Part shown: in pieces, positions 4,756 through 61,905 of the stretch
Layout of the letters: every line of letters starts with the position of its first letter
How positions within the stretch are numbered: position 1 is the stretch's first letter
From: an uncultured Bacteroidaceae bacterium
GTDB lineage: Bacteria > Bacteroidota > Bacteroidia > Bacteroidales > Bacteroidaceae
Reading direction: 5' to 3'
NCBI GenBank assembly: GCA_905235575.1
Contig: CAJOLZ010000002.1
Span: forward strand, 173,248 to 237,247
Length of the DNA: 64,000 nucleotides
Notes under the pieces: generated by a model
The model's database searches: none
Told to the model about the DNA's origin: nothing
Seen by the model: only the letters and a program-made list of their open reading frames with translations
Position numbers and translations under genes: made by a program

Positions 4756-5700
4756 ATGAACAGGATGCCCCATATAATGTATACAGATTTTACCACGCAT
4801 ACCGCTTCCTCGACAAGCAGCCCCGTGGAGCGCAGGTCAACACACCGTGGTCTTCAGGCTGTCGCACCGTGGTCTTCAGGCTGTCGCACCGTGGTCTTCA
4901 GGCCGTCGCAGCGTGCTGCGTTTTTAACATTTCCACAGTGCGTACTCCGTAGCCTCGCTATCTTGCTGATTTACATCGCTCTTCCTTTGTCAGCCTCCGC
5001 CATCGACATCGATAGTCTGAAAGTAGCTGCTGACAGTGCCTATGCACAGGAGAAATACGAAGATGCTGTAAAGATTTATTCGGAATTGACCGAGCAGACC
5101 GAGAATGCCGACGTGTATTACAATCTTGGCTGTGCCTATTATCGTATGGACGACATGGCGCACGCCATATTGTGGTTCGAGCGCGCTGCGATGTTGAATC
5201 CCTCCGACAAGGACATCAATTTCAACCTCGAACTGGCGCGTAGTAAGACCATCGACCGCATCACGCCGCGCCACGAAATGTTCTTCGGGTCGCTTTTCAA
5301 CTGGCTTTCGCAACTCTTCAGCCTGAGCCAGTGGGCCTTCGTCTGCATCGCCCTGTTCGTCCTCTCGCTTGTAGGGCTGGGGCTGTTTTTCTTCTCTGGT
5401 CGCTATCTGCTGCGCAAGGGCGGTTTCTATGCTGCAGTAGTCTTGTTCATGCTCACCATCGTTGCCAACCTGTGTGCCAACCACCGCAGGAACAGCCTCT
5501 TGAGCCATGACAGCGCCATCGTCGTAGCCTCTTCTGTGACGGTGAAAAGTACGCCCTCGCAGAGCGGAAACGATTTGTTCGTGCTGCACGAGGGCACTCG
5601 GGTGGAGATTCGCGACGCGTCGATGAAAGACTGGTGCGAGGTGCAGATTGCCGACGGCAAGGTGGGATGGCTGGAACGCTCGGCGATGGAGGAAATCTGA
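4756..5700 (+). CDS. batE: BatE-type TPR plus SH3-like protein; start codon uncertain because a 22-nt repeat array lies in the 5' part of the ORF
   Basis: TPR (ADVYYNLGCAYYRMDDMAHAILWFERA), two TM helices, C-terminal SH3-like domain; last gene of the Bat cluster. Confidence 0.75.
   Translation: MNRMPHIMYTDFTTHTASSTSSPVERRSTHRGLQAVAPWSSGCRTVVFRPSQRAAFLTFPQCVLRSLAILLIYIALPLSASAIDIDSLKVAADSAYAQEKYEDAVKIYSELTEQTENADVYYNLGCAYYRMDDMAHAILWFERAAMLNPSDKDINFNLELARSKTIDRITPRHEMFFGSLFNWLSQLFSLSQWAFVCIALFVLSLVGLGLFFFSGRYLLRKGGFYAAVVLFMLTIVANLCANHRRNSLLSHDSAIVVASSVTVKSTPSQSGNDLFVLHEGTRVEIRDASMKDWCEVQIADGKVGWLERSAMEEI
4843..4925. repeat. 22-nt-period GCAC repeat array (batE 5' region)
   Basis: caccgtggtcttcaggctgtcg x3 (4843, 4865, 4887), then cagcgtgctgcgttttt. 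Confidence 0.92.
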
Positions 5701-5751
5701 GAAATCAAGAGATTGGGAAAAGAAATTCGATAACAGCATAACGTAGTCAGG

Positions 5752-6447
5752 ATGGAGGAAATCACAACGTGGAGTAAGTCCATATTCTTTCTGCTCAACG
5801 GCAGCGACTCCCTCTATCTCGACGGTGTCTTCTGGACCATCACACGCACGGTCACGTGGGTGCCGCTCATGCTCATTACCTTATATATTGTGGTAAAGAA
5901 CAACGGATGGCGTCGCGCGCTGCTTCCCATCGCCGTCGTCTTGCTGCTCATCTGCTTCACCGACCAGTTTTCGAGCTCTTTTTGCAAACCCTTCTTCAGG
6001 ATTCTGCGTCCCACTCACGACCCATCGACAGCAACGATGGTGGACATTGTCAACGGCTATCGCGGCGGGCTTTACGGATTTTTCTCGAGCCATGCTGCCA
6101 ACACCTTTGCCTGCGCCACTTTCCTTTCGCTCCTATTCCGCTCGTGGAGCGTCTCGGCTTTCCTCTATATCTATGCCTTCCTGTGTAGCCTGAGCCGTAT
6201 ATACCTGGGTGTACATTCGCCCATAGATATCGGTGTCGGCACCCTTTTCGGTCTGCTCTCCGGCGCGCTTTTCTATTTCCTGTATTATCTAGCCGACAAG
6301 CGCTTCGGTCAGCCACGCACGTTCTTTTCCTCAGCCTATACTGCTTCGGGCTATCTCTACTCCGACTTAGTCCTGATACATTTAGGCTTTGCGCTCACCC
6401 TGCTCTACGTAGCCTTCAACGCCGTCTTCTTGGCGGCCAGTTATTGA
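5752..6447 (+). CDS. Phosphatase PAP2 family membrane protein
   Basis: SSHAANTFA and SRIYLGVHSPIDI motifs. Confidence 0.88.
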   Translation: MEEITTWSKSIFFLLNGSDSLYLDGVFWTITRTVTWVPLMLITLYIVVKNNGWRRALLPIAVVLLLICFTDQFSSSFCKPFFRILRPTHDPSTATMVDIVNGYRGGLYGFFSSHAANTFACATFLSLLFRSWSVSAFLYIYAFLCSLSRIYLGVHSPIDIGVGTLFGLLSGALFYFLYYLADKRFGQPRTFFSSAYTASGYLYSDLVLIHLGFALTLLYVAFNAVFLAASY

Positions 6448-6471
6448 TAAATCCCTCAGTCGCCCACAGCC

Positions 6472-9400
6472 ATGAAACACCTGCTTCTGATATTGCTTCT
6501 GCTTCCTCTCGTGGCCTGTCAGCGTGTGCCTGAGAGTCTTCGCAACGAGGTGGACCGCTGCAACGAACGCTCGTATCACGACCGATATATCGACATCGAC
6601 AGTGCGCTGTGGTATGCGAAACGTGCTGAGCAACTCTCGGAAAACTATACCGACGGTCGGACCGAGGCAAAGATAAATCAAGCTTTCGTGCTCTATCAGC
6701 AGATGAAATTCGACGATGCGCTGGATTTGCTCTCTGTAATTGAAAAGACATCGAGGAACCAGTTCCTGCTGCTTGCCACACATATTCTGCAGATGAAGGT
6801 GGCACAGCGAGTGGGTGACGGTGAATCGTTCTTTGCCTACCGCAGCCGTTCGCGTCAGATACTCGACCGCATAGAAGAGGGGTTCGAACCTGTCTCACCT
6901 CACTATGCAGCCATGGTGAACCATGCCTTTTCAGAACTCCACATCGTTTCCAGTACGTATTACTATTACCTCGGCCTCGACTCCGCAGCCCAGGCCGAGA
7001 TACAGCAGGCGTACGATTATGTAAAGGACAGCCGTGACACCGCACAGTGGCTCAATTACAATTACATGTTGGGCAGCGGCGGACTCATCGTTGGCGAAAA
7101 GGACGAGGTCGTTCTGCGCGAATTTGAACATCTCTTTCTGACATATACCCTTGCCAAGGCCCGCAACTACACCTATTTCGAGGCAAACGCCCTGCAGTCG
7201 CTCGCGTCGATGATGGCTGACACCTGCGCAGCCAACCTGATACGGCAAGAGCAGACGGGTTCATTCAACTATCTCTCAACCGAGTATCCCACCGATGATG
7301 CGTCGGAAGACCTGAGCTTTGCCATGGCCCGACGCACTATCTACCTGTTCGAGAAGAATAAAGACCTCTATCAGACGGCCTGTGCCTACCGAACTTTGGG
7401 AGAGTTATACTTTGCAAATGAAGATTATGAACTTGCGCTCGACATCTTCAAGCTCGCTCTCAAAATGGTTGAAGACCAGCAAGAGACGAATCCGTCGACC
7501 GTGAATCCGTGGATTGCCAACATACGCGAAAAGCTCAGTCTTGCCTACAGTGCGCTCGGTGACAAGTATTATTCCGATGTGAACAGAAATATCTATCTCG
7601 ACTTGCTCGACGAATATCGTCAGAATTACGAGTCGGAAACTCGTCTTGCAGAACTGGAGCACGAAGTGACGTCCCTTCGCATCCGTATCTATATCCTTTT
7701 GCTGCTAATCGTTGTCACAGCCCTTCTGGCATGGCTCTTTGTGAAACGAATGAAGCGGTCAACACGCCGCAAGCTTGCGCATTTAGACCGCTTCGAAGAA
7801 TCGGAAGACTTCAAGAAGTTCTCGGAACACGTATCCGAAGTCTGCGCAGGACTCAGCGACGAAGCAGAGTTGCTTCAGGATGAGCTGAACGTGAGTCGCC
7901 TCCACATACAGAAGTACAAGGAAGAGAATGTGGAACGACGAGCCAAGGTCGCAATGGTTTACTCGATTATTCCCTATCTCGACCGTATGCAGGCTGAGGT
8001 AAAAAAAATAAAGCCGGACACTGCTGACAACAGCGACCGGCTGGAATATATCGGTGAACTGGCCGACGAAATAATGCACATAAACGAGACACTTACCGAC
8101 TGGATAAAGATGTCGCAGGGAAGTCTTGCTTTGCATATATCCACGTTCCCACTCAAAGAGGTTCTTGACGTGGTATCACTCTCTCGAAATTCCTTCGAAG
8201 AACGTGGCATCGCCCTTCACATTGCTGAATCAGATATTCAGGTAAAGGCAGATAAGGCCCTGACACTCTTCATGGTAAACACGCTTTTGGATAATGCCCG
8301 CAAGTTCACACCCGATGGGGGAGAGGTCGGCGTTTCAGTTGAAGGCGCGGATGATTACGTAGAGATTTCGGTAAGCGATACGGGTGTCGGGTTGAGCGAA
8401 GAAGACTGCGGCAAACTGAATGACAATAAAGTTTACGATGCTTCTGAGATAGGAAATGACGACGGCCGCAAGGGTTTCGGTTTCGGAATAATGAATTGCA
8501 AGGGAATAATAAACAAGTATCGCAAGACCTCGCGCCTTTTCGGCGTCTGTCAGTTTGGCGTCAACAGCCAGTTAGGGGCAGGCAGCCGTTTCTGGTTCAG
8601 ACTACCTCGCGTGCTGGCCTCGCTTCTCATCTTCTTTACCCTTCAGCCTGTTCATTCCGAAGACTTGACCAGCGATTTCGAGAGCATCTACGATTCGCTA
8701 TACACGGCAAATATCGATGGTCGATACGCTGAGGTTGTCTCAAAGGGAGAAGACTTCCTGAACCGATTGACTCCGCCATTCGATACAGCTTATGTAGTGC
8801 TGATTCACAACGAAACGGCCATTGCCGCCCTTGCCACCCAGCAGTGGGATATTTACAGGAAACACAACCAGGAATGTGTCCGTCTGCATCAGCTCTTTAC
8901 GCAAGACTCATCCATTCCAGCATATTGTGAGCAGATGCAGCACCTTCATTCCAATGGTATTCTCATCTATCTGTTCCTCATCCTGTTTTCCCTGACGGCT
9001 GCCATCCTCTTCTATCTGCTTTACCTCAGACATGGTCTGCGCTCTCGCAACATCTATGACCGTCTTTCGGAAGCGCTCAGCTCGTTGCTCAGCTCTGCGG
9101 ATAAGGCTGTGTCGTCTTATTCCGATTCGTCCCTGGCGCAACTGCGAGTATCTGTAGATGCAGACCACTTCGATGCAGAAAGAGACCGCATTGCCAATGC
9201 CGTGAAGGAAACTTCAGAAAATGACGAAAACCTCTCCAACCTTGCCAGCCGAGGCGTTGAACAGATTGCCGGACGATATACCGAAGTCCGAACGATTCTC
9301 GACAATCTCTTCAATCTTGAGGAGGAACGTCGCAAGGCTTTGTTCGAGGAAGACCGCATCTATGTGATGAACCAGATTCTCGATAATTCCCTCAGTACAA

Positions 9401-10047
9401 TCAAGCATGAGACGATGTACTATCCGGCCCGAGCCAAACAAATTGTCGAGCAGATGCAGAAGGATGCCCAGACCGAATCGGAAGAGAAGAAAACTGGAAG
9501 TTATCAATCCGAACTCTCCCAACTGCTGCGTTATTACCACGATGTTTATCTGATTCTATATAATCAGGCCGAGCTGCAACTCGAGCAGCATCATTTCCGT
9601 CGTCAGGACATTTCGGTTGCCGACATCCTGAACGACTTCTCCGCGCTGCTTCGTGCCGAACTTGACCGACGCCATCTCTCCCTTCCCTTTACATCCGAAG
9701 CCGATGCACCTTCAGCCGTCACAGCCGACCGCTCGCTGCTTCACACCCTCTTCCGCTCCCTCGTCTTCGATCGTCTCGATACCGTCGAAGCCCTCTCCCT
9801 GCATGCTGTTTCTCGGGAGAACGACACCCTCTTTACTCTTGTTTTCCAGGGACTTGCCATTTCGAAAGAAGAAGCTGACAGCATCTTCAGTCCCCACGGA
9901 CACTCCATACCCGACCTCGTTGCCCGTCAAATCATTAGAGAGCACGACTCATCCTGCGGAATGCTTGGACTGCGCCTCTATGCAGAGCCTGCCTCCGATG
10001 GCTCGCTCGCAATCTCATTCACATTGAAAAAACAAACTGAACTATAA
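6472..10047 (+). CDS. Large lipoprotein-like sensor (DUF5112/DUF5113-like) with an internal HATPase domain
   Basis: Lipobox-like N-terminus (LPLVACQ), TPR-like repeats, TM near residue 410, HATPase motifs (NTLLDNARKFTPDGG, DTGVGL, GFGFGI); second half repeats a repeat-TM-cytoplasmic layout; response regulator follows. Confidence 0.75.
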   Translation: MKHLLLILLLLPLVACQRVPESLRNEVDRCNERSYHDRYIDIDSALWYAKRAEQLSENYTDGRTEAKINQAFVLYQQMKFDDALDLLSVIEKTSRNQFLLLATHILQMKVAQRVGDGESFFAYRSRSRQILDRIEEGFEPVSPHYAAMVNHAFSELHIVSSTYYYYLGLDSAAQAEIQQAYDYVKDSRDTAQWLNYNYMLGSGGLIVGEKDEVVLREFEHLFLTYTLAKARNYTYFEANALQSLASMMADTCAANLIRQEQTGSFNYLSTEYPTDDASEDLSFAMARRTIYLFEKNKDLYQTACAYRTLGELYFANEDYELALDIFKLALKMVEDQQETNPSTVNPWIANIREKLSLAYSALGDKYYSDVNRNIYLDLLDEYRQNYESETRLAELEHEVTSLRIRIYILLLLIVVTALLAWLFVKRMKRSTRRKLAHLDRFEESEDFKKFSEHVSEVCAGLSDEAELLQDELNVSRLHIQKYKEENVERRAKVAMVYSIIPYLDRMQAEVKKIKPDTADNSDRLEYIGELADEIMHINETLTDWIKMSQGSLALHISTFPLKEVLDVVSLSRNSFEERGIALHIAESDIQVKADKALTLFMVNTLLDNARKFTPDGGEVGVSVEGADDYVEISVSDTGVGLSEEDCGKLNDNKVYDASEIGNDDGRKGFGFGIMNCKGIINKYRKTSRLFGVCQFGVNSQLGAGSRFWFRLPRVLASLLIFFTLQPVHSEDLTSDFESIYDSLYTANIDGRYAEVVSKGEDFLNRLTPPFDTAYVVLIHNETAIAALATQQWDIYRKHNQECVRLHQLFTQDSSIPAYCEQMQHLHSNGILIYLFLILFSLTAAILFYLLYLRHGLRSRNIYDRLSEALSSLLSSADKAVSSYSDSSLAQLRVSVDADHFDAERDRIANAVKETSENDENLSNLASRGVEQIAGRYTEVRTILDNLFNLEEERRKALFEEDRIYVMNQILDNSLSTIKHETMYYPARAKQIVEQMQKDAQTESEEKKTGSYQSELSQLLRYYHDVYLILYNQAELQLEQHHFRRQDISVADILNDFSALLRAELDRRHLSLPFTSEADAPSAVTADRSLLHTLFRSLVFDRLDTVEALSLHAVSRENDTLFTLVFQGLAISKEEADSIFSPHGHSIPDLVARQIIREHDSSCGMLGLRLYAEPASDGSLAISFTLKKQTEL

Positions 10048-10052
10048 ATACT

Positions 10053-10775
10053 ATGGAACCATTTAAAGTAATCATTGTCGAAGACGTAATGCTCGAACTG
10101 AAAGGCACCGAGCAGATATTCAGGAGCGACATCCCCGAAGCCCAGATAATAGGTACAGCACAGAACGAAGGTGAGTTCTGGAAATTGATGCGTCAGGATG
10201 TCCCCGACCTCGTACTCCTCGACCTCGGTCTGGGTGGCAGCACAACCGTAGGTGTCGACATCTGTCGTCAGATTCGCAGTCGCTACACCTCCGTCCGCGT
10301 CCTCATCTTCACCGGTGAAGTCCTCAACGAACGCCTTTGGGTCGAGGTGCTCAACGCAGGCGCCGACGGCATCATCCTCAAGACAGGCAACCTGCTGCAA
10401 CGCGACGATGTCATGCTCGTCATGCACGGAAGACATCTCGTCTTCAACGAACCCATCCTCGAAAAAATCATGCAACGCTTCAAACGACTTGTCAACGCCG
10501 AGAGCGACAAGAGCGATGCCATGATAGAATACGAGATTGACGAGTACGACGAACGCTTCCTGCGCCACCTCGCACTCGGTTATACCAAGGAGATGATAGC
10601 AGGACTGCGACGGATGCCCTTTGGCGCAAAAAGCCTTGAAAAACGTCAGGCCGACCTCGTAAGCCGACTCTTCCCGGCAGCCGAACGCACCGGCATCAAC
10701 GCAACACGGCTCGTCACCAAAGCCTTCCAGCTACACATCCTCGACGTCAACCATCTCATCCCAGATGAAGACTGA
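10053..10775 (+). CDS. Response regulator
   Basis: Receiver domain (IIVEDV, LVLLDLGLGG, LIFTGE, ILKTGNL); C-terminal output domain is not a clear classical HTH by eye. Confidence 0.85.
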   Translation: MEPFKVIIVEDVMLELKGTEQIFRSDIPEAQIIGTAQNEGEFWKLMRQDVPDLVLLDLGLGGSTTVGVDICRQIRSRYTSVRVLIFTGEVLNERLWVEVLNAGADGIILKTGNLLQRDDVMLVMHGRHLVFNEPILEKIMQRFKRLVNAESDKSDAMIEYEIDEYDERFLRHLALGYTKEMIAGLRRMPFGAKSLEKRQADLVSRLFPAAERTGINATRLVTKAFQLHILDVNHLIPDED

Positions 10776-11334
10776 CCGCCTCGTCACACTCATCCTGCTG
10801 CTTCTTACAGCAGCCCTCCTCCTGCTGCCCCTCGTCTCATGGATAGCATCGCTGGCAGGAACTGACGTCCGCAACCTGCTTTCGGGCGAAGGACTCCGAT
10901 GGATGTTCCTTCACGGTGGCAGCCTCCCCTTCGGCTACCTCACCTCACTCACCATCATCACCGTCATCACCATCGGAGCCTACTCCTACGTCGGACTTCC
11001 CGAGGCAAGATACACCACTACCTCATTCCGCCTCACCCTCCTCCTTGCCACACTCTTCGACATCCTGCTCCTCCTCGCCCTGTTCCATCCGCGCAGCCCC
11101 CTCATCAGCCTCACAGGCCGACTCTTCCCCAGTCCCTTCTTCTACGGATTCCCCTTTGCCCTCTGTATCGGACTTCTCCTTACCTCCCTCTTCTACGGCA
11201 TCCTCGCTCGCCGTCTCACCACAGCCTCCGCTCTCGTCACCTTCATGACAACTGGCCTGCAGCGCTATCCCCGCATAATCATCCTCGTCATGATAGCCAC
11301 CGCCCTCTACCACACACTGCAATACATCCTATAG
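10765..11334 (+). CDS. Polytopic membrane protein, possibly related to the AbgT transporter N-terminus
   Basis: About five hydrophobic segments; VRNLLSGEGLRWMF resembles AbgT N-terminal sequence (weak). Confidence 0.55.
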   Translation: MKTDRLVTLILLLLTAALLLLPLVSWIASLAGTDVRNLLSGEGLRWMFLHGGSLPFGYLTSLTIITVITIGAYSYVGLPEARYTTTSFRLTLLLATLFDILLLLALFHPRSPLISLTGRLFPSPFFYGFPFALCIGLLLTSLFYGILARRLTTASALVTFMTTGLQRYPRIIILVMIATALYHTLQYIL

Positions 11335-11343
11335 ACCTACACA

Positions 11344-13587: not shown

Positions 13588-13668
13588 AACGCAAAGCGCT
13601 GCGACGGGCTGCGCACTGTGGTCCGACAGCCGACGCAACGTGGTGCATTTTGCATCGCACAGCGTTTG
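13588..13668. repeat. 22-nt-period GCAC repeat array
   Basis: Unit starts 13591, 13613, 13635, 13657; flanked by aaacgc and gcgttt. Confidence 0.9.
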
Positions 13669-13674
13669 AATATA

Positions 13675-15126: not shown

Positions 15127-15129
15127 CTT

Positions 15130-17147: not shown

Positions 17148-17168
17148 AGTTTATAGAATAGTCCAGTT

Positions 17169-18355: not shown

Positions 18356-18385
18356 AATACTTCCGCTCGAAAATGCTCAAACAAT

Positions 18386-20293: not shown

Positions 20294-20380
20294 AAAACAC
20301 CGCGCTGCGACGGGGCGTGAAACGGAGTGCATCGTTCGTCGTAACGTGATGCACCCCCGTTCGTTGCACCCCGTTCGTAA
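20294..20380. repeat. 22-nt-period GCAC repeat array (diverged)
   Basis: Units at 20297, 20319, 20341, 20363; GTGCATC/GATGCAC inverted repeat. Confidence 0.75.
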
Positions 20381-28659: not shown

Positions 28660-28735
28660 AAACGCAACGGGGTGCGACGGACATTGCACCACGTTGCGAC
28701 GCTTGTTGCAGCACGGTGCGACGGCGTTGGATGGC
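28660..28735. repeat. 22-nt-period GCAC repeat array
   Basis: Unit starts 28663, 28685, 28707. Confidence 0.9.
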
Positions 28736-36288: not shown

Positions 36289-36376
36289 AAAACGCAACGT
36301 GGTGCGTAAGCCAATGCAACGTGCTGCGACAAGCGTCGCACCGTGGTGCGTCATTCGTCGCATCGCAGTGCTTTTT
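36289..36376. repeat. 22-nt-period GCAC repeat array
   Basis: Unit starts 36294, 36316, 36338, 36360; AAAACGCA...TGCTTTTT ends. Confidence 0.92.
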
Positions 36377-41236: not shown

Positions 41237-41237
41237 A

Positions 41238-45824: not shown

Positions 45825-45913
45825 AAATGCACTGTGGTGCGACGCTTGTCGCAGCGTGATGCGACAGCCTGCGGAGCACGTTGCGACAAGCGTCGAAGCA
45901 CGGTGCGTTTTTT
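45825..45913. repeat. 22-nt-period GCAC repeat array
   Basis: Unit starts 45829, 45851, 45873, 45895; long imperfect palindrome ending GCGTTTTTT. Confidence 0.92.
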
Positions 45914-46237: not shown

Positions 46238-47902
46238 ATGAAACAAAATTACATTAAATCATTATTGGCATCGCTGGTAGCCTTGCTGACACCCATGAGT
46301 CTGATGGCTTTGGAAAAAGATGGTCTCGAATATTTAATCAGTTCGGCAGAAGACCTGATGGAGTTTGCGCAACTTGTAAATGCTGGTGAAATCGAAGCCG
46401 AAGCCCAATTGATGGCCGACATTGATACGAGGAAACTTGGCAAAGATTTTATTCCAATTGGGACGCAAGAGAATCCATACTGCGGACGGTTCTATGGTAA
46501 TAATCATCGGATTACGATAGACCTTGTTTCTACCCACGACAACTATGGATTGTTTTCTTCTCTGAATAAGAGCGGTTATATATCGAACCTATATGTCGAT
46601 GGCACTATAGAAGCTAAACACAACAATGTGGGCGGCATCGTGGGTATGATTTCAAGTATTCCCTCTGTGCAAGAGTGTACATCCAATGTCAATATTACCG
46701 TTAGCAAGCGAGACGTTCACGACATCGGCGGCATCATTGGATGGAGCTATTGTCTTCCCGGAATTAATATTGCACACGTAGAGAATTGTATCTACACAGG
46801 GCATATAATGGGGCATACCGACGGCAGCTGTGCTGGAATCGTAGGATTTTGTCATACAGGCTACGATGCCGAGAATCGTAGACGTGGAACTAGTATTAGG
46901 AACTGTCTTGTGACGGGTGTGGTGGACATAGAGATTCCCACTCTAACTAATCATATTATTGCTGGCGGAGAAACACCGTATACAGATATCAAGAACTGTT
47001 ATTTTATAAATCCGTGTGAAATTGATGGGGAATTCTATGATATAGGCGTTGAACGAGGCGGTATGACACGAGTGACCATGGAACAAGTGGAGAGCGGGGA
47101 AGTATGCTATCGCTTAAATGTCGATCCGTTTGCAGCTATCTTAGGCGCACAACGTCGTACGACCATCTTCCGTCAGAATATCGGAGTGGACAAATATCCC
47201 GTATATGACATCTCGCATGGCATAGTTACTAAAATTGAGTCTTTTGGTTATGGAACCTGGGCCGGGGGTAGTTTCAATGGTGTTGGAAGTGCAGCCCGTA
47301 CGCCAAAAGGTGTGGAGGCATTCGCCGGTACAATTGATGGGGACACTCTAATACTCCATCCTGTAAAGGTTATGGATGGAAGTCAAGGAATAGCCTATAT
47401 TATTAAAGGTGAACCCGGCTACTATAGTCTTATGCCCACCAGCGAGAAACCTACAGCTGTTAAAAACAATCTGAGTGGCGGCATTGAATGTGTTGATACC
47501 CGATATGCTACATATTATGTATTAGGTGTGGAGAACGATGTCGTAGGATTCTACAGACTTGGTTCTTACATTAAAGCGCTTGACTCGTTCACGGCCTTTA
47601 TATTAGATCGAGACCTTGACGCTGACGTGAATATGCTTCCTTTCGTTTTCGAAGGCCCGACCATTGGTGACGCCAACGGTGACGGTAAGGTCACCATCAC
47701 TGATGCTGTGGCAGTGGTGAACTACATCTTGGGCACCACGCAGGAGAAGTTCGACAAATTAGCCGCAGATGTTAACGAAGATGGAGAGATAACCATCACC
47801 GACGCCGTGGGTATCGTGAACATCATCCTCAATGCCGATTCTGCCGGTGTGAAAGAACGTCGCGAGCGGGAGGAGGTGACGACCGAAAGAGAACCGGACT
47901 AA
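46238..47902 (+). CDS. Secreted protein with GLUG-like repeats and a C-terminal dockerin-like tail
   Basis: Signal peptide; NVGGIVGMIS and DIGGIIGWSY repeats; GDANGDGKVTITDAVAVVNYILG...DVNEDGEITITDAVGIVNIIL. Confidence 0.8.
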   Translation: MKQNYIKSLLASLVALLTPMSLMALEKDGLEYLISSAEDLMEFAQLVNAGEIEAEAQLMADIDTRKLGKDFIPIGTQENPYCGRFYGNNHRITIDLVSTHDNYGLFSSLNKSGYISNLYVDGTIEAKHNNVGGIVGMISSIPSVQECTSNVNITVSKRDVHDIGGIIGWSYCLPGINIAHVENCIYTGHIMGHTDGSCAGIVGFCHTGYDAENRRRGTSIRNCLVTGVVDIEIPTLTNHIIAGGETPYTDIKNCYFINPCEIDGEFYDIGVERGGMTRVTMEQVESGEVCYRLNVDPFAAILGAQRRTTIFRQNIGVDKYPVYDISHGIVTKIESFGYGTWAGGSFNGVGSAARTPKGVEAFAGTIDGDTLILHPVKVMDGSQGIAYIIKGEPGYYSLMPTSEKPTAVKNNLSGGIECVDTRYATYYVLGVENDVVGFYRLGSYIKALDSFTAFILDRDLDADVNMLPFVFEGPTIGDANGDGKVTITDAVAVVNYILGTTQEKFDKLAADVNEDGEITITDAVGIVNIILNADSAGVKERREREEVTTEREPD

Positions 47903-47987
47903 ACGCACCACAGTCCTACGCTTGTCGCAGCGTGATGCGCAGGCTGTCGCAACATGCTGCGACAGCCATCGAAGCACAGTGATATAA
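47901..47987. repeat. 22-nt-period GCAC repeat array
   Basis: Unit starts 47905, 47927, 47949, 47971. Confidence 0.9.
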
Positions 47988-49995: not shown

Positions 49996-50036
49996 GTCGC
50001 ACCGTGCTGCGACGACAAACGCAGCACGGTGCGTTT
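49996..50036. repeat. 22-nt-period GCAC repeat, two units forming a hairpin
   Basis: GTCGCACCGTGCTGCGacgacaaaCGCAGCACGGTGCGTTTT; units at 49999 and 50021. Confidence 0.88.
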
Positions 50037-52254: not shown

Positions 52255-52316
52255 GGATGAGAAAAAAAGAGTGCGAGGTATAGGGCAAGCCTACGCCTCG
52301 CACAGATTCATTCTAC

Positions 52317-53954
52317 TTATTTATGCTCCAGGGCAAGTGTCTTGGTGCACTGGTCGCACACCTCCGTGGGTCCCCAGTACTGAATGGGGCCGGGATAGAT
52401 GTACAAAGTCTTGCGTGCCCACTCGTCGCGATTTGCTGCGAAGAACTTGAACGGTGCGCCATCCAGTTCCACCAGTGCTTTACGGATCACGGGCTTCATC
52501 TTACCGTTGCGGCGTTCCATGTTCATCATCATGGTGATGGGTACACCTCCAGCCACCCATTCTGCGGCCGGTGCGGTTGTGTTCTGGATGATGGACATAT
52601 AGCCAGTCTTTCCTGCGGCAATCAGACGGCTTGCATTGTAACCCAGGCTGTAGCAGTAGTCGGCATCGTAGTTCGACGGTGCGGCGCAACGTCCCTCGTA
52701 ACCGAAGAAATGATGCTGAGCCGAGAATTTACCGTTGTATTTGCCTTCTTTCTTCCAAGCCTTGAGTTTCTCGGCCACCATGCGGCTGAGCAGTTTCTCT
52801 GTCTCGATGAGCGATACCTGTACGTTTCCGTGCGGGTCGCGGTCGAGAGCCAGCTGAGCAGCCACGTCGGCGGGCAATGAATTGAATACAGCCAGATTGT
52901 CGGCAGCGATATGGCTCTTCACGTAGGCAATCTGCTCGTCTGCGCTCTGCAGAGCCTGTGCTTCGGGAGCAGCCAGCACGTCGTTCAGTTCGGCAATCAG
53001 CTTCTTAATTGCAGGGATGAATTCGATGAGACCTTCGGGAATCAGCACGGTACCGAAATTGTTACCTTCGGCTGCACGGTCGGCTACAATCTGAGCGATG
53101 TAGGTCACCACCTCGTCGAGCGACATGGCCTTCTTCTCAACTTCTTCCGAAATCAGGCACACGTTGGGCTGGGTCTGCAGTGCGCATTCCAGTGCGATGT
53201 GGCTTGCCGAGCGGCCCATCAGCTTGATGAAGTGCCAGTATTTGCGAGCCGAATTGCAGTCGCGCTGTATGTTACCGATGAGTTCGCTGTAGGTCTTGCA
53301 GGCAGTGTCGAAGCCGAAAGAGGTCTCGATCTGCTCGTTCTTCAGGTCACCGTCGATTGTCTTGGGACAGCCAATCACCTGAACACCGTACTGCTTTGCT
53401 GCGTAGTATTCAGCCAGCACACATGCGTTGGTGTTCGAGTCGTCGCCACCGATGATCACGAGTGCCTTGATACCCAGTTGGCGCAGAATCTTGATACCGC
53501 TCTCAAACTGGTCAACCTCCTCGAGTTTCGTACGTCCGGAGCCGATGATGTCGAAGCCGCCCGTATTGCGATATTCGTCGATGAACTCGTCGGTAAACTC
53601 CACGTATTTGTGGTCCACCAGTCCGCCGGGACCCATCAGGAATCCATAGAGCTTGCTGTCGGCGCTCAGGCTCTTCACGCCGTCGTACAGACCGCTGATC
53701 ACGTTGTGTCCGCCCGGGGCCTGTCCGCCGCTCAGGATGATACCCACGTTGAACGGCTCGGTCTTCTGAGCCTCTCCAGCCTCGAAACGAATCACGGGCA
53801 TGCCGTAGGTATTCGGGAACATAGCCTTGATTTCCTCCTGATTGTCAACACTCTCTGTGGCAGCGCCCTCTACAGCTTTCACCGGGCCGAGCAGTGCCTT
53901 CGGCAACTTGGGCTGATAGGCTGCGCGGGCCTTCTGCAATGCACTTTTTTCCAT
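52317..53954 (-). CDS. pfp: Diphosphate-fructose-6-phosphate 1-phosphotransferase
   Basis: [61 protein letters not shown]. Confidence 0.93.
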
Positions 53955-54317
53955 AATTTAATAAGGTTTGGTTGTTATGAATTGATAATACTTTTCACCT
54001 CTTTTCGATATCCACTGCAAATATACAAATAAGCACGGAAATCGCAAAACGAAATCTTCTTTTTCTTTTGAAGGCAATCATCGCTTGGACAAAAAATATT
54101 TCTATGCAATGTTCTGAAATCGGAAGATTCGCATCTGCATGCCGAAGCAAGGGGCATCGAAAAATGATGTGAGAAGGTGTGAGAATGGATGTCCTTCGCT
54201 GCGCAGGGGTGAAGACTTAAATCCGCCGATTTTTCAACTGCTTGATTCTCAGTTGTGCATATTTTTGCATAAAACTTCTTTTGCCAGAGAATTAAACGCA
54301 GAAACTCGCTTCGGAAG

Positions 54318-54388
54318 AAAACGCACCGTGCTGCGACAGCCTTCGCACTGTGGTGCGTCATCCGACGGAACGTGTTCCGACAGCAGAA
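54318..54388. repeat. 22-nt-period GCAC repeat array
   Basis: Unit starts 54323, 54345, 54367. Confidence 0.9.
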
Positions 54389-54490
54389 AAACAATTTTGA
54401 ATCGAAACGAAGTCAAATAAATGTAAGGATTATTTCGTGTGTACAAATATAAAATCTTATCATTGGTATAACATTTTCGTATGGCAACGC

Positions 54491-54521
54491 TTGTACGATT
54501 CGATTTCTTTTGCTATCTTTG
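54491..54521 (+). promoter_or_regulatory. Bacteroidetes-type promoter
   Basis: TTG 54491-54493, N20, TATCTTTG 54514-54521, upstream of ATG 54553. Confidence 0.65.
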
Positions 54522-54552
54522 CGATGATTTGTAATCTCAAAATTTGTCGATT

Positions 54553-54819
54553 ATGAAACGCCGCGAACTGAAAAAGACCATCAACTATCTGTGTGGTGAA
54601 TTGCTTGCAGAGTGCATAGCAGCAGCAAGTTATAATAAGAATGTGCACGAGGCCGACGTCGAGAATGTGGCCAAGAGCATCCTGCTTATGCAGGCCGACC
54701 TGGTGAGCCGCCTCTCTCACGTGGAGCCGGGCAGCACACGCCTTTTCTTCACTCGCATACGCGAGGAGATGATTGAGCGAACCGACGAGATTGTAGAACG
54801 CATAAAAGCCTTGGCATGA
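54553..54819 (+). CDS. Small hypothetical helical protein, overlaps the acyltransferase start
   Basis: MKRRELKKTINYLCGELLAECIAAASYNKNVHEADVENVAKSILLMQADLV; promoter upstream, ATGA overlap. Confidence 0.75.
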   Translation: MKRRELKKTINYLCGELLAECIAAASYNKNVHEADVENVAKSILLMQADLVSRLSHVEPGSTRLFFTRIREEMIERTDEIVERIKALA

Positions 54820-55364
54820 AGGGCGGGAAATTGTCGCGCCGCATCCTCTACCGCTGGATGGGCTACCACGTGGATGTCACAGAGCCTCTCCCCTCGAAAT
54901 TCATTATTGCCATGGCGCCGCACACCAGCAACATGGATTTTCTCATCGGACAACTCTACAGCCGCAGCATAGACACTCCCATCCAATTTATGATGAAGAA
55001 GTTCTGGTTCTTCTGGCCCTTAGGTCCCATCCTCAGACGCATGGGTGGCATTCCCATAGACCGCTCACGACATACGGGGGTGACGGAACAGGTGGCTCAG
55101 GCAGCCCGCGAGGCCGAGACTTTCCGTCTCTGCATCACGCCCGAGGGTACGCGCAAGCCCACACGCGACTGGAAGAAAGGCTTCTACTATATCGCCCTGA
55201 AGGCCGAACTGCCCATCCTGCTCTTCGGTCTCGACTATGAACGCCGCCTGATAGCCTGTCGAAAGACCATCGTGCCGTCGGGCGACTTCGAAGCCGACAT
55301 GGCTCAGATAAAGGAATACTTCCGTGAATTCCGCGGACGACATCCCAAAAATTTCATCGTTTAA
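54816..55364 (+). CDS. 1-acyl-sn-glycerol-3-phosphate acyltransferase-like protein
   Basis: APHTSNMDFLIGQLYS; GGIPIDRSRH; ITPEGTRKPTRDWKKGFYYIA. Confidence 0.88.
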   Translation: MKGGKLSRRILYRWMGYHVDVTEPLPSKFIIAMAPHTSNMDFLIGQLYSRSIDTPIQFMMKKFWFFWPLGPILRRMGGIPIDRSRHTGVTEQVAQAAREAETFRLCITPEGTRKPTRDWKKGFYYIALKAELPILLFGLDYERRLIACRKTIVPSGDFEADMAQIKEYFREFRGRHPKNFIV

Positions 55365-55414
55365 CAGCCGATTCAGCCTCACTGGCAGAACCGATACAAC
55401 ATACATATATAATA

Positions 55415-58363
55415 ATGGGCAGAACGACTCATTACATAAAACTGGCACTCGCGCTCGCGTTCTTTGCACTTCCTGCGGCCGGGCAGAACGTCACGCAGGT
55501 GAAACGCAGCCTGACGAACTATTTCGCCGACTACACCAACGACGCCTACAGCAGTCTGGACAAGATAAAGGTGGAAGACATTCGCGTAGACCGCGAACAC
55601 CGGGCAATGGACATTTACCTGAACGAACCATTCCTGGGACAGCCTTTCACCCCCGAGACTGTGGAGAACGTCTATCGCAACACGGCCGAGCAACTGCCCT
55701 CGCCCTACAATCGATATAAGCTCACCATCTATGTGAAGAACAAACCAATAGAGCAACTGGTGCCCATCACGCTGATGGATAAGCCTGGCGAACAACGCTT
55801 GTATCGTTGGCGCGAGGTCGAGGGCGAGCCATGGGTGACGCCGCTGAGCCGCCCCAACCGCATCAGCGCCGGACTGCAGGGACGCCATCTGTGCCTCTGG
55901 TCCAGCCACGGCATCTATTTCAGTCATAAGAAGGGTGAGTGGATATGGCAACGTCCGAGTATCTACTGCACCTGCGAAGATATCTTCACACAAACCATCG
56001 TACTCCCCTACCTCATTCCCATGCTCGAGAATGCCGGAGCTGTGGTGTTCACACCGCGCGAACGCGACTGGCAGAAGAACGAGATTATCATCGACAACGA
56101 CCGACCCAATGCCGGTGGTATATACTCAGAAAACGAAGGACGCAATCCATGGCAATCAGCCCAGGACGGCTTTGCCTACCTGCGCCCCTACTATACCGAA
56201 GGGCAGAACCCTTTCAGAGACGGTACGGCTCGATGGACTGAGACCACCCGAAGTGACGATTCGATGAGCAGCATCGTATGGATGCCAAAGATAGAAAGTA
56301 GCGGTGACTATGCCGTATATGTCTCGTACAAAACGGTTGAGAACAGCGTGGACGACGCCCTCTATCGCGTGACACACGGCGGCATCACCAGCGAATTTCG
56401 CGTCAACCAGACGATGGGCGGCGGCACATGGGTCTATCTCGGTACGTTCCACTTCGACGAAGGCATGAGTGCCGAAAACTGCGTGATGCTCTCCAACCAA
56501 AGTCGTAAAAAAGGTATTGTCACGGCAGATGCCGTACGTTTCGGCGGCGGAATGGGCAATATCATGCGCTACGATTCAGCCACACCCGACCAGATGTCGT
56601 TGAGCCGGATGCCGCGTTTCATCGAATGTTCCCGATACTATGCCCAATGGGCAGGAATGCCTTATCAGGTATATTCGGCAAAAGAAAGTACAGACGACTA
56701 TGGCGACGATATCAACGCGCGCCCCAGAATGCTTAACTTCCTGACGCGCGGCAGTGCATACTACCCTCCCGACGAAACATACGTTCCCGGTGACAGCGGA
56801 CTTGCCGTGCCCATCGAACTCAGCATGGGCGTTCACAGCGACGCAGGACTACGCAAAGACGACACCCTCATCGGTACACTCGGAATATATACCACAGGCT
56901 TCTATGACGATATAACAGCCACCGGCCTGAGCCGTCTGACGAGCCGTGACATGGCAGACATCGTGATGACCAATGTCGTTCGTGACATGAGACAATACTT
57001 GGGAAGATGGAACCGACGTGCCATGTATGACCGCAATTATGGAGAGACGCGCGAACCGCAGGTGCCATCGATGATCCTGGAAATGTTCAGCCATCAGAAC
57101 TGGGCCGATATGCGTTATGGTCACGACCCCTACTTCAAGTTCCTCATGGCACGTGCCATCTACAAAGGCATTCTGGAATACATCTCGGCAGTCCACAATT
57201 TATCGAAGACAGTAATACAGCCCCTTCCCGTGGAAAACCTTGCTGCCGAAGTGTCGCCTGACGGTACCTCGGTGAGACTAAGCTGGCAACCGCAGCTCGA
57301 TGCCACTTCGCCCAGCGCCGTGCCAGAACGATATATCATCTATAAGAAAGAGGGCAATGCTGACTACGACAACGGAACGCTTATCAACAAGGACAATACA
57401 GATTGCTATATCCCTATACAACCTGGCGTGCTCTATCGCTTCCGGGTGGCTGCCGTAAACGATGGCGGAAGCAGTCTCAAGAGTGACGAAGTCTGTGCGT
57501 ACTACGCAGGTGCCAATGCCGAACGGCTCTTCTTAGTCGATGGTTTCCAGCGTATGGCAGGACCACAGCCTATTGATACCGAGACACTCAACGGGTTCGA
57601 CATGCAGAGCGAACCAGGTGTCGTGGACTACAGAATGCCTGGCTATTGCGGATATCAGCTGAACTTCAGCAAAGACGGCTATGGCAAGGAAGGCCCCACA
57701 GGACTGGGCTTCAGCGGCAGCGAACTGGAAGGTGTTGTGCTGGCAGGCAATACCCACGACTACGTATCACGTCATGCCGCAGATATTCTTGCAGGAGGTC
57801 TCTATACGATGAGCAGTTGTACGCGGAACGCACTTGGCAGAGTTTCCCTTGCCGGCTACCGTGTGATGGATCTCATCTTGGGAGCACAGAAAGACGATGG
57901 CTACAGCATGAGACGCTACAAGACTTTCACGCCCGAACTGCAACAGACGCTTTTGGCATTCACGCAAGGTGGAGGAAGCGTTCTTGTGAGTGGTGCCTTC
58001 GTCGGAAGCGATATGCAGAGCGCAACGGAACAGCAATTCACATCGCAAGTTCTCAAATACAGATACCAGGGAGCAATGTCGACCGACAACCTGAACCGCG
58101 TGCAAGGTATGAATACTTCGGCTTCCATATACAATCAACCCAACGAGAGTAACTACTGGATTCGTCAGGCCGATGTTCTTGAAGCAGTCGGTGGTGCATT
58201 CTCCGCAATGCTCTACGAACAAGCCAACACCTCGGCAGCCACTGCCTATCAGGGAACTGACTATCGCGTCATGGCATACGGATTCCCACTCGAATGCGTT
58301 CAGGACACCGAAACGCGACGTGCCATACTCTCGGCATCAGTGCGATTCCTGCTCAACAAATAA
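55415..58363 (+). CDS. Secreted xanthan lyase / amidase-like protein with fibronectin III-like and golvesin-like regions
   Basis: Signal peptide; GIYFSHKKGEWIWQRPSIYCTCEDIFTQTIVLPYLIPMLENAGAVVFTPRERD; FRVAAVNDGGSSLKSDEVCAYYA. Confidence 0.78.
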   Translation: MGRTTHYIKLALALAFFALPAAGQNVTQVKRSLTNYFADYTNDAYSSLDKIKVEDIRVDREHRAMDIYLNEPFLGQPFTPETVENVYRNTAEQLPSPYNRYKLTIYVKNKPIEQLVPITLMDKPGEQRLYRWREVEGEPWVTPLSRPNRISAGLQGRHLCLWSSHGIYFSHKKGEWIWQRPSIYCTCEDIFTQTIVLPYLIPMLENAGAVVFTPRERDWQKNEIIIDNDRPNAGGIYSENEGRNPWQSAQDGFAYLRPYYTEGQNPFRDGTARWTETTRSDDSMSSIVWMPKIESSGDYAVYVSYKTVENSVDDALYRVTHGGITSEFRVNQTMGGGTWVYLGTFHFDEGMSAENCVMLSNQSRKKGIVTADAVRFGGGMGNIMRYDSATPDQMSLSRMPRFIECSRYYAQWAGMPYQVYSAKESTDDYGDDINARPRMLNFLTRGSAYYPPDETYVPGDSGLAVPIELSMGVHSDAGLRKDDTLIGTLGIYTTGFYDDITATGLSRLTSRDMADIVMTNVVRDMRQYLGRWNRRAMYDRNYGETREPQVPSMILEMFSHQNWADMRYGHDPYFKFLMARAIYKGILEYISAVHNLSKTVIQPLPVENLAAEVSPDGTSVRLSWQPQLDATSPSAVPERYIIYKKEGNADYDNGTLINKDNTDCYIPIQPGVLYRFRVAAVNDGGSSLKSDEVCAYYAGANAERLFLVDGFQRMAGPQPIDTETLNGFDMQSEPGVVDYRMPGYCGYQLNFSKDGYGKEGPTGLGFSGSELEGVVLAGNTHDYVSRHAADILAGGLYTMSSCTRNALGRVSLAGYRVMDLILGAQKDDGYSMRRYKTFTPELQQTLLAFTQGGGSVLVSGAFVGSDMQSATEQQFTSQVLKYRYQGAMSTDNLNRVQGMNTSASIYNQPNESNYWIRQADVLEAVGGAFSAMLYEQANTSAATAYQGTDYRVMAYGFPLECVQDTETRRAILSASVRFLLNK

Positions 58364-58412
58364 ACGAACGTGATTGAAACTAAACGAACAAACATAACGA
58401 CATAAGAAGGAC

Positions 58413-58748
58413 ATGTATCAGATACTTTGTAACATGAAAGGCTCACGCAGCCTGCAAGTCGAGGCCTCGCATCTTGAGACCATCGAGCAATATTCCCTTT
58501 TCAGTGAGCTCCTCGACAGCAACGGGATGGTAGATGAAAGCGTGCTTGAGAAGCTTCGTCTCAATGTCCGAGCCCTCCTCGAAACGACAAACGGCGACCC
58601 GCAGCTCCTGAATCTCTGTCAGGATGTGCTCTTTCATCCCAACATGAAAGCATTCGGTCTGCATCAACTCATTCTTCTCTACATTGATTGGGAAAAGGAG
58701 AAACTCGACACACTTAAAGACCAGATAGAACCCGAAAGCGAGTTCTGA
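58413..58748 (+). CDS. Hypothetical protein, overlaps the radical SAM gene start
   Basis: Operon position and stop/start overlap at 58748. Confidence 0.65.
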   Translation: MYQILCNMKGSRSLQVEASHLETIEQYSLFSELLDSNGMVDESVLEKLRLNVRALLETTNGDPQLLNLCQDVLFHPNMKAFGLHQLILLYIDWEKEKLDTLKDQIEPESEF

Positions 58749-60640
58749 TGCAACAGAGTAGACCTCTCACCGACTGGCTTCCCACGACGCGACGCGAAAT
58801 GGAAATGCGCGGATGGGACTGCGCTGACGTCATCCTCTTCAGCGGTGATGCTTACGTGGACCATCCCAGCTTTGGTGTGGCTGTCATCGGACGTCTGCTC
58901 GAAGCCGAAGGTCTGCGCGTCTGCATCGTACCGCAACCTGATTGGCACGGCGATTGGCGTGATTTTCGCAAGCTCGGACGCCCCAGACTCTTCTTCGGCA
59001 TCTCGCCTGGTTGCATGGATTCGATGGTCAACAAATACACCGCAGCGCGCCGTCTCCGCAGCGAAGACGCTTACAGTCCCGACGGCCGGCACGATCTTCG
59101 ACCCGAATACCCCTCCGTTGTCTATACGCGCATCCTGAAGAAACTCTATCCCGACGTGCCGGTCGTCCTCGGTGGCATCGAAGCAAGTCTCCGACGTCTC
59201 ATGCACTACGACTACTGGAAAGAGAGATTTCGTCCCAGCATCCTCATCGACAGCTTTGCCGATGCCATCACCTACGGGATGGGTGAGCAGGCAACACTCG
59301 AGATTGTCCGTCGTCTTCTGACCGCACTCGACGAGAGTCATCCGACACTTTACTACGACGAGCAAGGCGAAGCATACATTACCACGGACACTTTCCAAGA
59401 GACCATCATCGATACCGACACCGTTCCGCAGATAACTTACCTCGCTGAGGATGTCACCATCGACAAAGAGCGCGACATTGTGTTGCACAGTTATCTCGAT
59501 GCCCTGCGCGAGCCGGAACTTCATGCGGAGAACTTTCGTCATATCGAGGAAGAAAGCAACAACCTGCATGCCCACCGTCTGTTGCAAAAGACCGAAGGCG
59601 CTTGGGTTGTCGTCACACCGCCCTATCCGCCCATGACGCAAGCTCAGCTCGACCACAGCTTCGACCTTCCCTACACCCGTCTCCCTCATCCCAAATACAA
59701 CGGCAAGCGCATACCTGCCTACGAGATGATACGCCACAGCGTCACCCTACATCGCGGATGTTTCGGCGGATGTGCCTTCTGCACCATCAGTGCCCACCAG
59801 GGTAAGTTCGTTTCGAGCCGTAGCAAAGAGAGCATCCTGCGCGAGGTCGATGCCGTCACTCGCATGCCCGACTTCCGCGGATATATCAGCGACCTCGGAG
59901 GTCCCAGCGCAAACATGTACTCCATGCGTGGCCGCAACCCGAAAGCCTGCGACGCCTGCCTCCGACCCTCCTGCATACATCCGGGCATATGTCCCAACCT
60001 CAACGTCGACCACCGCCCACTGCTCGACATATACCGCGCCGTCGATGCGCACCCCAAGGTCAAGAAAAGCTTCGTGGGCAGCGGCATACGATACGACCTC
60101 ATCCTGCATCCGCAGAAAGACCCACAACTGGAGAAAGCCTCACGAGAATATGCCGAAGAACTCATCCTGCATCACGTCAGCGGACGTCTCAAGGTTGCCC
60201 CCGAACACACCTCCGACACCGTCCTCAACCTGATGCGCAAGCCCTCGTTCGCGCTCTTCCACCAGTTCAAGCAACTCTTCGACAGCCTCTGTCACCGCCA
60301 CCAACTGCGCCAGCAGATCGTCCCCTACTTCATCAGCAGCCACCCCGGCTGCACCGACATCGACATGGCACAACTCGCCATAGAGACCAAGCAGATGGAC
60401 TTCCGTCTGGAGCAGGTGCAAGACTTCACCCCTACCCCACTCACACTCTCCACAACGTGCTGGGCCACAGGCATTCACCCCTACACGATGCAACCCGTCT
60501 ATGTCGCACAAACACCACGTCAGAAAGAGCAACAGCGCATGTTCTTCTTCTGGTACAAACCCGAGGAACGAAAGCGCATCATCCAGCGGTTGAAGCAACT
60601 CAATCGCCCCGACCTATTGAATAAACTCACAAATAAATAG
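58748..60640 (+). CDS. YgiQ family radical SAM protein
   Basis: CFGGCAFCTISAHQGKFVSSRSKESIL (CxxxCxxC); N-terminal WLPTTRREMEMRGWDCADVILFSGDAYVDHPSFG. Confidence 0.95.
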   Translation: MQQSRPLTDWLPTTRREMEMRGWDCADVILFSGDAYVDHPSFGVAVIGRLLEAEGLRVCIVPQPDWHGDWRDFRKLGRPRLFFGISPGCMDSMVNKYTAARRLRSEDAYSPDGRHDLRPEYPSVVYTRILKKLYPDVPVVLGGIEASLRRLMHYDYWKERFRPSILIDSFADAITYGMGEQATLEIVRRLLTALDESHPTLYYDEQGEAYITTDTFQETIIDTDTVPQITYLAEDVTIDKERDIVLHSYLDALREPELHAENFRHIEEESNNLHAHRLLQKTEGAWVVVTPPYPPMTQAQLDHSFDLPYTRLPHPKYNGKRIPAYEMIRHSVTLHRGCFGGCAFCTISAHQGKFVSSRSKESILREVDAVTRMPDFRGYISDLGGPSANMYSMRGRNPKACDACLRPSCIHPGICPNLNVDHRPLLDIYRAVDAHPKVKKSFVGSGIRYDLILHPQKDPQLEKASREYAEELILHHVSGRLKVAPEHTSDTVLNLMRKPSFALFHQFKQLFDSLCHRHQLRQQIVPYFISSHPGCTDIDMAQLAIETKQMDFRLEQVQDFTPTPLTLSTTCWATGIHPYTMQPVYVAQTPRQKEQQRMFFFWYKPEERKRIIQRLKQLNRPDLLNKLTNK

Positions 60641-60650
60641 ATAAAGAAAA

Positions 60651-61094
60651 ATGTCAACACAATGGTTTGAATGCAAAGTCCGCCATGACAAGACAATGGA
60701 AGACGGACTGATAAAGAGCGTAACCGAAAGTTTTCTCGTTGATGCCCTCAGTTTCACCGAGGCCGAAAGTCGTTTCATCGACGAGATAAAGCAGTTTATT
60801 ACGGGTGAATTCACCGTCACCGACATCAAGCGAACCCGCATTGCCGAGCTTTACGAAAGCAACGATTCGCTCGCCGACCGATGGTATCGCGGCAAAATTT
60901 CTCAAATCATCATCGATGATAAGTCAGAGAAAGAAAAACGGACATCATACACCGTTCTCGTACAAGCCATCGACCTGCGCGACGCCGTCAAGAACATCGA
61001 CGCTGCCATGGCCAACTCCATCACCGACTACGACATCGTCTCCGTCACCGAAACCAAAATCATCGACGTCTATCGCTACAAACAAAAGGAATAG
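60651..61094 (+). CDS. DUF4494-like protein
   Basis: MSTQWFECKVRHDKTMEDGLIKSVTESFLVDALSFTEAESRFIDEI. Confidence 0.82.
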   Translation: MSTQWFECKVRHDKTMEDGLIKSVTESFLVDALSFTEAESRFIDEIKQFITGEFTVTDIKRTRIAELYESNDSLADRWYRGKISQIIIDDKSEKEKRTSYTVLVQAIDLRDAVKNIDAAMANSITDYDIVSVTETKIIDVYRYKQKE

Positions 61095-61133
61095 CGAGCG
61101 CCATGGAACTTGGACAATCTCAATTTGAGCATC

Positions 61134-61802
61134 ATGGATTCTAAAGTCCTTCAACGCATCACCACCGAGCTGCCGTCGGGCACACGTCTCGTGGCCGTCA
61201 GCAAGTATCATCCCGCCGAAGCCATCCTCGAAGCCTATCAGGCCGGGCAGCGCATCTTTGGCGAGAGCCATGTTCAGGAACTGCAGGTCAAGCAAGCCCA
61301 GCTGCCGACCGACATCCAGTGGCATTTCATCGGCCATCTGCAGACCAACAAGGTCAAGTACATCGCGCCCTACGTCAGCCTCATACACTCCGTCGATTCG
61401 CCCCGTCTGCTCGACGAGATAAACCGTCAGGCCCTGCGCGCCGGCCGTCGCATACCCTGCCTGCTGCAGATACACGTTGCGCAGGAAGAGACCAAGTTCG
61501 GGTTCCTGCCCGACGAGCTCATCGAATTTCTGCGTTCCGGCCATTGGCACACACTCGAGGGCGTTGAAATCGCAGGCCTCATGTGCATGGCGAGCAACAC
61601 AGACGACGAGGCGCAGATTGAGTCCGAATTCGCACGTGCACAACACTTGTTCGACCAGCTGAAGAACGAGTTTTTCACAGCGCAGCCCACCTTCTGCGAA
61701 CGCTCCTGGGGCATGAGCCACGACTACCCTATCGCCCTGCGCTGCGGAGCAACGCTCGTCCGCATCGGCAGCCTGATATTCGGAGACCGAGTGTACCTAT
61801 AA
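61134..61802 (+). CDS. YggS family PLP-binding protein
   Basis: LVAVSKYHPAEAILEAYQAGQRIFGESHVQEL; WHFIGHLQTNKVKYI; MSHDYPIALRCGATLVRIGSLIFG. Confidence 0.92.
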   Translation: MDSKVLQRITTELPSGTRLVAVSKYHPAEAILEAYQAGQRIFGESHVQELQVKQAQLPTDIQWHFIGHLQTNKVKYIAPYVSLIHSVDSPRLLDEINRQALRAGRRIPCLLQIHVAQEETKFGFLPDELIEFLRSGHWHTLEGVEIAGLMCMASNTDDEAQIESEFARAQHLFDQLKNEFFTAQPTFCERSWGMSHDYPIALRCGATLVRIGSLIFGDRVYL

Positions 61803-61818
61803 TTCCTTGTCTCAGATT

Positions 61819-61905
61819 ACGCACTGCGGTGCGACGTTTGTCGCACTGTGTTGCGACAGCTTACGCACTGTGGTGCGACGGGCGTCGCACCACAGTGCGT
61901 TTTTT
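61819..61905. repeat. 22-nt-period GCAC repeat array
   Basis: Unit starts 61821, 61843, 61865, 61887. Confidence 0.95.
61863..61905 (+). terminator. Perfect 17-bp hairpin plus T-tract after the YggS-family gene, made of 22-nt array units
   Basis: ACGCACTGTGGTGCGAC-gggc-GTCGCACCACAGTGCGT-TTTTT. Confidence 0.8.

Follow-up and report, generated by a model that had tools for sequence, protein, structure and literature searches.

The window analysed here is a 64,000-nt stretch (contig C2, positions 173248-237247) of a metagenome-assembled genome of 2.49 Mb, which consists of 65 contigs and is 87.6% complete. An aminotransferase encoded in the window shares 84-91% identity with its relatives from rumen and gut Prevotella, and 89% with that of P. 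ruminicola KHT3. By this identity, the host is judged to be an uncultured species of the Prevotella group. The window contains short tandem arrays of a quasi-palindromic unit at ten loci, one of which lies within a longer composite element. The features are listed below in window coordinates, with the unit scores in order.

4842-4919, no strand: bare (class II) array of four units, the first three weak (CACCGTGGTCTTCAGGC variant); scores 3.4, 9.4, 9.4, 21.4, then GTTTTT
13591-13646, no strand: array of three units, convergent genes either side; scores 14.2, 14.6, 17.4
20297-20352, no strand: degenerate array, one strong and two weak units in register; scores 14.2, -2.1, 5.5
28664-28719, no strand: array of three units; scores 15.8, 19.2, 19.7
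36294-36371, no strand: array of four units, convergent genes either side; scores 21.3, 17.1, 23.8, 12.8
45829-45906, no strand: array of four units, linkers 1 and 3 reverse-complementary; scores 16.8, 19.0, 14.9, 18.1
47905-47982, no strand: array of four units, convergent genes either side; scores 12.9, 16.5, 22.0, 6.4
49999-50032, no strand: array of two units; scores 23.6, 21.7
54110-54439, plus strand: class I composite (nhmmer family, exact ends), with left end TGTTCTGAAATCGGAAGATT, leader, array and right end TGTAAGGATTATTT
54323-54378, no strand: array of three units inside the class I composite; scores 22.6, 20.7, 11.5
61821-61898, no strand: array of four units; scores 20.6, 20.0, 20.7, 20.7

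A preliminary description of this DNA had placed units at ten loci in an exact 22-nt register. Nine of these loci are clear, and the one at 20297 is degenerate; two starts were moved by one base (4843 to 4842, and 28663 to 28664), and those of the other seven clear loci were unchanged. That description did not mention that the array at 54323 lies inside a composite of about 312 bp, that an element holds about four units at most, or that an intergenic region holds a single array. A scan with the unit matrix found no further array of at least two units in the window. The window contains 37 unit matches and 20 pairs at a lag of 22 nt, against a mean of 6.7 matches and no such pair in 60 dinucleotide-Markov controls; since this genome had also supplied the training data for the matrix, the comparison tests chance only.

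The window also contains, at 46238-47899, a 554-aa open reading frame that encodes a type I dockerin domain (Pfam, E = 6e-13), which is notable for Prevotella. Our gene model called this frame in its 3' part only.

Unit, spacing and copy number

Each unit consists of a 12-nt quasi-palindrome, GCA-S-C-(GT|AC)-G-S-TGC, and a 10-nt linker, which is often GAC-N4-GTC. It had been written before as a core of about 15 nt with a 7-nt linker; the 12 + 10 division describes it better. The two dyads lie 11 nt apart, which makes an array, as had been noticed, near-identical on both strands. The reported borders AAACGC and GCGTTTT correspond to AAAAC and GTTTT edges, which are real in the flank profiles. 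A CRISPR has near-identical repeats with unrelated spacers of about the same length as the repeat; the variable 12-nt cores, the 10-nt linkers and the limit of about four units agree with the earlier view that the arrays are not CRISPR. The earlier failure to recognise a known family is likewise supported. In the window, Rfam at gathering score matches just a tRNA.

The array statistics were obtained from 846 kb of stretches, about one third of the genome, in which 149 arrays with at least two units were identified. By scaling, the whole genome carries about 440 arrays. Pairs of strong units occur 326 times at lag 22, 181 times at lag 44, 53 times at lag 66, and never at lag 88. Lags of 19-21 and 23-25 are not represented, and any other lag below 200 occurs once at most; the 22-nt period is thus far beyond chance, the opposite of which had been named as grounds for abandoning it. 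Four units are present in 104 arrays, three in 36, two in 7, and an apparent weak fifth in 2; the lack of lag-88 pairs indicates a maximum of about four units per element. The genome scan for the unit pattern gave 602 + 627 matches, compared with 19 for the reversed pattern. A generic three-unit pattern matched 562 times per strand in the same genome at 22-nt spacing, and not at all with 21- or 23-nt spacing. The bare arrays, described below, have a mean identity of 0.69, and nearly all of them have kept their length.

Conservation at the DNA level

The arrays fold stably (about -42 kcal/mol). This could be expected if they were intrinsic terminators acting in both directions, or hairpins at the 3' ends of mRNAs, like REP or BIME elements at 3' ends, in which the GC-rich quasi-palindromes and GTTTT would stop both transcripts. 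A hairpin, however, would not need strict spacing, and a selected hairpin should show covariation at its paired positions. At unit positions 4 and 9 the letters vary independently of each other (CG was observed 98 times, with about 99 expected), and the stem diagonals within and between units showed no relevant Watson-Crick surplus; the compensatory changes that the preliminary description had suggested looking for were not found. Column-shuffled arrays fold equally well or better. In the leader of the class I elements, no pair was predicted, and there was no stem-like mutual information. As neither the covariation analysis nor alifold nor the folding of column-shuffled sequences gave a positive result, RNA structure was rejected as the conserved trait.

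The features conserved in the arrays are the letter at each position, the dyad symmetry of the consensus, the central GT or AC, and the spacing. This pattern is consistent with a dimeric protein that would bind double-stranded DNA, 22 bp being about two helical turns. A protein-binding array had been one of the options raised before, and it is the best supported of them, given the rigid spacing, the absence of covariation and the independent letters of the half-sites; the protein itself is putative.

Placement between genes

Neighbouring genes were taken from home-made gene calls, based on a codon model of our own. The 141 arrays with two called neighbours occupy 141 distinct intergenic regions, without a single double; random placement on non-promoter intergenic bases predicts about 31 doubles, with a minimum of 21 in 2000 trials. 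Of the remaining arrays, 6 lie at the ends of the stretches read and 2 inside called genes. A coding nature of the repeats, which had been raised as a possible objection, finds no support in this placement, and class I was rejected as coding sequence because it lacks 3-nt periodicity. DNA uptake signals are common within genes. Units that label self DNA for natural transformation would account for the high copy number, the species-specific spelling and the legibility from both strands, but just these two of the 149 arrays are inside called genes, and isolated strong units are at the shuffled level (14 single-unit arrays in 457 kb against 14 matches over an equal threshold in the shuffled control). 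An uptake signal is therefore highly improbable.

About 80% of the intergenic gaps with enough length carry an array, and occupancy varies with the length of the gap and the orientation of its neighbouring genes. From about 120 bp upwards, 32 of 40 convergent gaps hold an array, as do 52 of 67 co-directional gaps from about 300 bp and 27 of 29 divergent gaps of 400-1000 bp. These thresholds look like the space that an array would need alone, with one promoter or with two. A rule of regular chromosomal spacing was also considered (CV 0.51 vs 0.81 for random gaps); the null ignores the length-dependent occupancy, so such a rule is not claimed.

Several of these features would fit transcription terminators. 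Of the 43 convergent gaps that measure 110 bp or more, 37 contain an array, and bare arrays in co-directional gaps are nearer to stop codons (median 81 bp) than to start codons (203 bp). Ordinary terminators are rarer in the occupied convergent gaps (27% vs 50%). T-tracts are found at 82 of 151 gene-end sides (54%) and at 58 of 135 other sides (43%; p = 0.036), which weakly favours the terminator-derived repeat suggested before; these values, measured from the true array ends, replace the first figures of 57/55% vs 32/30%, which were based on a fixed 78-nt frame. Nevertheless, the divergent gaps are filled as well, ordinary terminators occur in 39% of occupied vs 30% of empty co-directional gaps, and the stronger GTTTT end has an orientation of 35:26 with respect to transcription. 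Together with the negative covariation results, these observations make termination an unlikely explanation.

Composite elements and bare arrays

Two classes of arrays were distinguished in the 846 kb. Class I, an nhmmer family, comprises 30 of the 149 arrays; the other 119 are bare (class II). The class I element begins with TGTNNNGAAATCGGAAGATT, followed by a leader of about 160 nt with the motifs GTGAGAAG-GTGAGAAT and TTGATTNTCAATA, then AAAACGCACC, the array, and the right end TGTAAGGATTATTT. The distance from leader to array frame is 29-35 nt, or one unit more, and the direction is constant. The length is uniform over about 311 nt in 26 of the 30 copies, apart from a base more or less in the leader, at a mean pairwise identity of 0.56. 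The class I element of the window measures 312 bp from TGT to TGT, and is flanked by divergent genes. Class I elements are nearly confined to gaps of the divergent and co-directional types; bare arrays occur in all gap types, including 37 convergent gaps, and their conservation stops at AAAAC and GTTTT. Inspection of the 30 class I copies by eye revealed no apparent terminal inverted repeats or target-site duplication. A viral origin was rejected, since the sole viral_contigs match looks like chance in a GC-rich contig.

A second dispersed repeat was seen in the same genome. It is a promoter-like cassette around AAATAAATTTGGCTTTTCGCTCGCTTATTCGTACCTTTGCA, with an end resembling the Bacteroidetes -7 element, which appears repeatedly in front of genes and has undergone tandem duplication at several sites. 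It is present at C2 78666-79355 (L050:18666-19355), C5 75894-76183 (L059:15894-16183) and many other 5' regions.

Related species and spelling

The nearest species by phosphofructokinase are G070 (95%) and G339 (92%), and both carry relatives of class I. One class I copy of G070 has the left end TGTCC..AAATCGGAA and matches through to the right end TGTAAGGATTATTTCCC; the TTGATTNTCA-like module is kept in all class I relatives of both species. The arrays of G070 and G339 have the same 22-nt register and the same C-GT/AC-G centre as those studied here. Their outer letters are different: GCA..TGC in the studied genome, mostly GGA..TCC in G070 (six arrays in 350 kb), and mostly AGA..TCT in G339. 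The re-spelling is not always symmetric, as the two halves of the unit differ in G052 (GCACCACGCTCT). Where the flanks match, in G031, G263 and G154, the arrays vary in spelling and in how many units they have.

A scan of relatives, as proposed before, was performed with the union pattern RSAVCRYGBTSY at 22-nt spacing. Of the 139 genomes of the genus, 37 contained the pattern, with 660 matches in the studied genome, 98 in G070, and 11-27 in about ten others; the reversed controls mostly gave none in the other genomes. A private expansion in a single species is thus partly wrong: the letters used were too specific, and relatives exist at far lower copy number. In other Bacteroidales families, 22-nt arrays with otherwise spelled GCA..TGC cores were found, for example GCACAAAAGTGC-GAAGTAGGTC (G492), GCAAAGCTTTGC (G575; L208-L210) and GCACAGCTGTGC (G476; L211-L213); these may be either homologous or convergent. 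The G492 arrays (L203-L207) have conserved flanks (GACCTACAGTTAACAAATTAATAC) and are mobile-element-like. Two species of the genus have arrays of this design in which the spacing is exactly 23 nt and the linker is a different one (CTTCACCGAAG), at G334:C46:3631-3734 and G335:C55:52417-52543. Another short palindromic repeat, of GCAGTAGTACTGC palindromes, lies close to a 22-nt array at L070:2280-2345 (G263:C36). The array at G053:C68:110067-110232 has seven or more units that are almost identical (AGAACGTGTTGT-GTTCCTCATA), which means that the limit of about four is specific to the studied species.

The comparison of orthologous regions for empty sites, also suggested before, yielded three short gaps without an array: 127 vs 720 bp in the studied genome, 75 vs 241 bp (the locus at 36294, in G347) and 192 vs 598 bp (the class I locus at 54110-54439, in G347), all in G070 or G347. 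Arrays thus come and go, at these three loci by either gain or loss. This would be expected of a selfish, non-autonomous MITE-like element with target immunity and no host function, which would also explain the dispersed class I composites with fixed ends, their homologues in G070 and G339, and the single occupancy. Neutral decay predicts many indels, however, and nearly all lengths are kept at identities down to 0.56 (class I) and 0.69 (bare). Moreover, most arrays are bare, class I has no terminal inverted repeat or target duplication by eye, and no link to a transposase was found. A purely selfish element is accordingly considered improbable.

Comparison with known repeats

REP and BIME elements resemble the arrays as hundreds of species-specific intergenic palindromes enriched at gene ends. 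The arrays differ in their rigid 22-nt register, and in the absence of covariation and of a Y1 transposase: no match to the Y1/RAYT family (PF01797) was found in the genome (87.6% complete), and the positive controls were detected. The array flank profiles contain AAAAC and GTTTT, and no GTAG/CGTC tetranucleotide tag, which in REP elements stands next to a hairpin of 20-40 nt. The REP-like element offered by the preliminary description is thus not supported by the features tested. Plasmid iterons and partition sites are repeated protein-binding sites whose spacing is a whole number of helical turns (in several iteron systems, about 22 bp), and each replicon has them at just one or a few loci close to its rep or par genes. 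The helical spacing of repeated sites is shared by the arrays, which instead occupy about 440 loci chromosome-wide.

The nearest published relative in kind is BrickBuilt, a minisatellite-MITE of Porphyromonas gingivalis, which is intergenic, has a leader and tail and predicted stem-loops, and has no Rfam match (PMC4596501). Its unit AGAYCATARTATCCTCTCRTRTG is 23 nt long and occurs in 1 to 22.8 copies at 18-19 loci, in elements with inverted-repeat ends (PMC4596501). Both repeats are found in Bacteroidales, between genes, with a short tandem unit of nearly equal length. By our reading, the BrickBuilt consensus also contains a 12-nt palindrome, TCTCATATGAGA. However, the 22-nt unit here, GCASC(RY)GSTGC-N10, has other letters and about four copies at most, and its loci number about 440. 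Inverted-repeat ends are not apparent by eye, and the leader-like module of 30 of the 149 arrays has letters unrelated to the BrickBuilt leader by inspection. A search of open-licence papers found no description of 22-nt arrays in Prevotella.

Possible function and evolution

The analyses suggest, with about an even chance of being right, that the arrays are protein-docking sites at transcription-unit boundaries, and that a mobile composite accounts for at least part of their spread. The 12-nt quasi-palindrome RSA-N-C-(GT/AC)-G-N-TSY would be the recognition site of a putative dimeric DNA-binding protein. With as many as four docking sites exactly 22 bp apart, dimers might bind cooperatively and lie on nearly the same face of the helix. 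One array at most would serve each intergenic region, away from start codons and at a transcription-unit boundary, where it may have a boundary or nucleoid-organising function. The array would spread in part or wholly within the class I element of about 312 bp, which would behave as a non-autonomous mobile element and presumably move by transposition; bare four-unit arrays are the commoner form.

The docking reading is favoured by the rigid spacing, the independent paired letters without Watson-Crick surplus, and shuffled arrays that fold no worse. It is also favoured by the retained length of class I at low identity with no predicted leader pair, by the single array per gap, and by sister species in which the register and centre are kept and the outer letters are replaced in both halves of the dyad. 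Such coordinated re-spelling could also come from gene conversion, or from renewed spread of a changed master copy. The 3'-end preference and the weak T-tract bias count against docking, since a pure docking site needs neither; the asymmetric unit halves of G052 do so as well, because the letter change is not always symmetric. A mobile origin with retained function would combine two of the readings.

Bacterial interspersed repeats are usually explained as RNA hairpins (REP, BIME) or as decaying MITEs. The present arrays are kept at the DNA level in a fixed register, occupy most of the long gaps, and are re-spelled by species, as expected for the sites of a nucleoid or insulator protein. More speculatively, and with a rather low likelihood, there might be a chromosome-wide boundary system in the Bacteroidales, in which one putative dedicated protein would load onto a helically phased array, no more than once in each intergenic region, and this protein and its sites would co-evolve into species dialects with a fixed 22-bp register. 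The array DNA, used as bait, would provide a simple biochemical handle on the putative binding protein.
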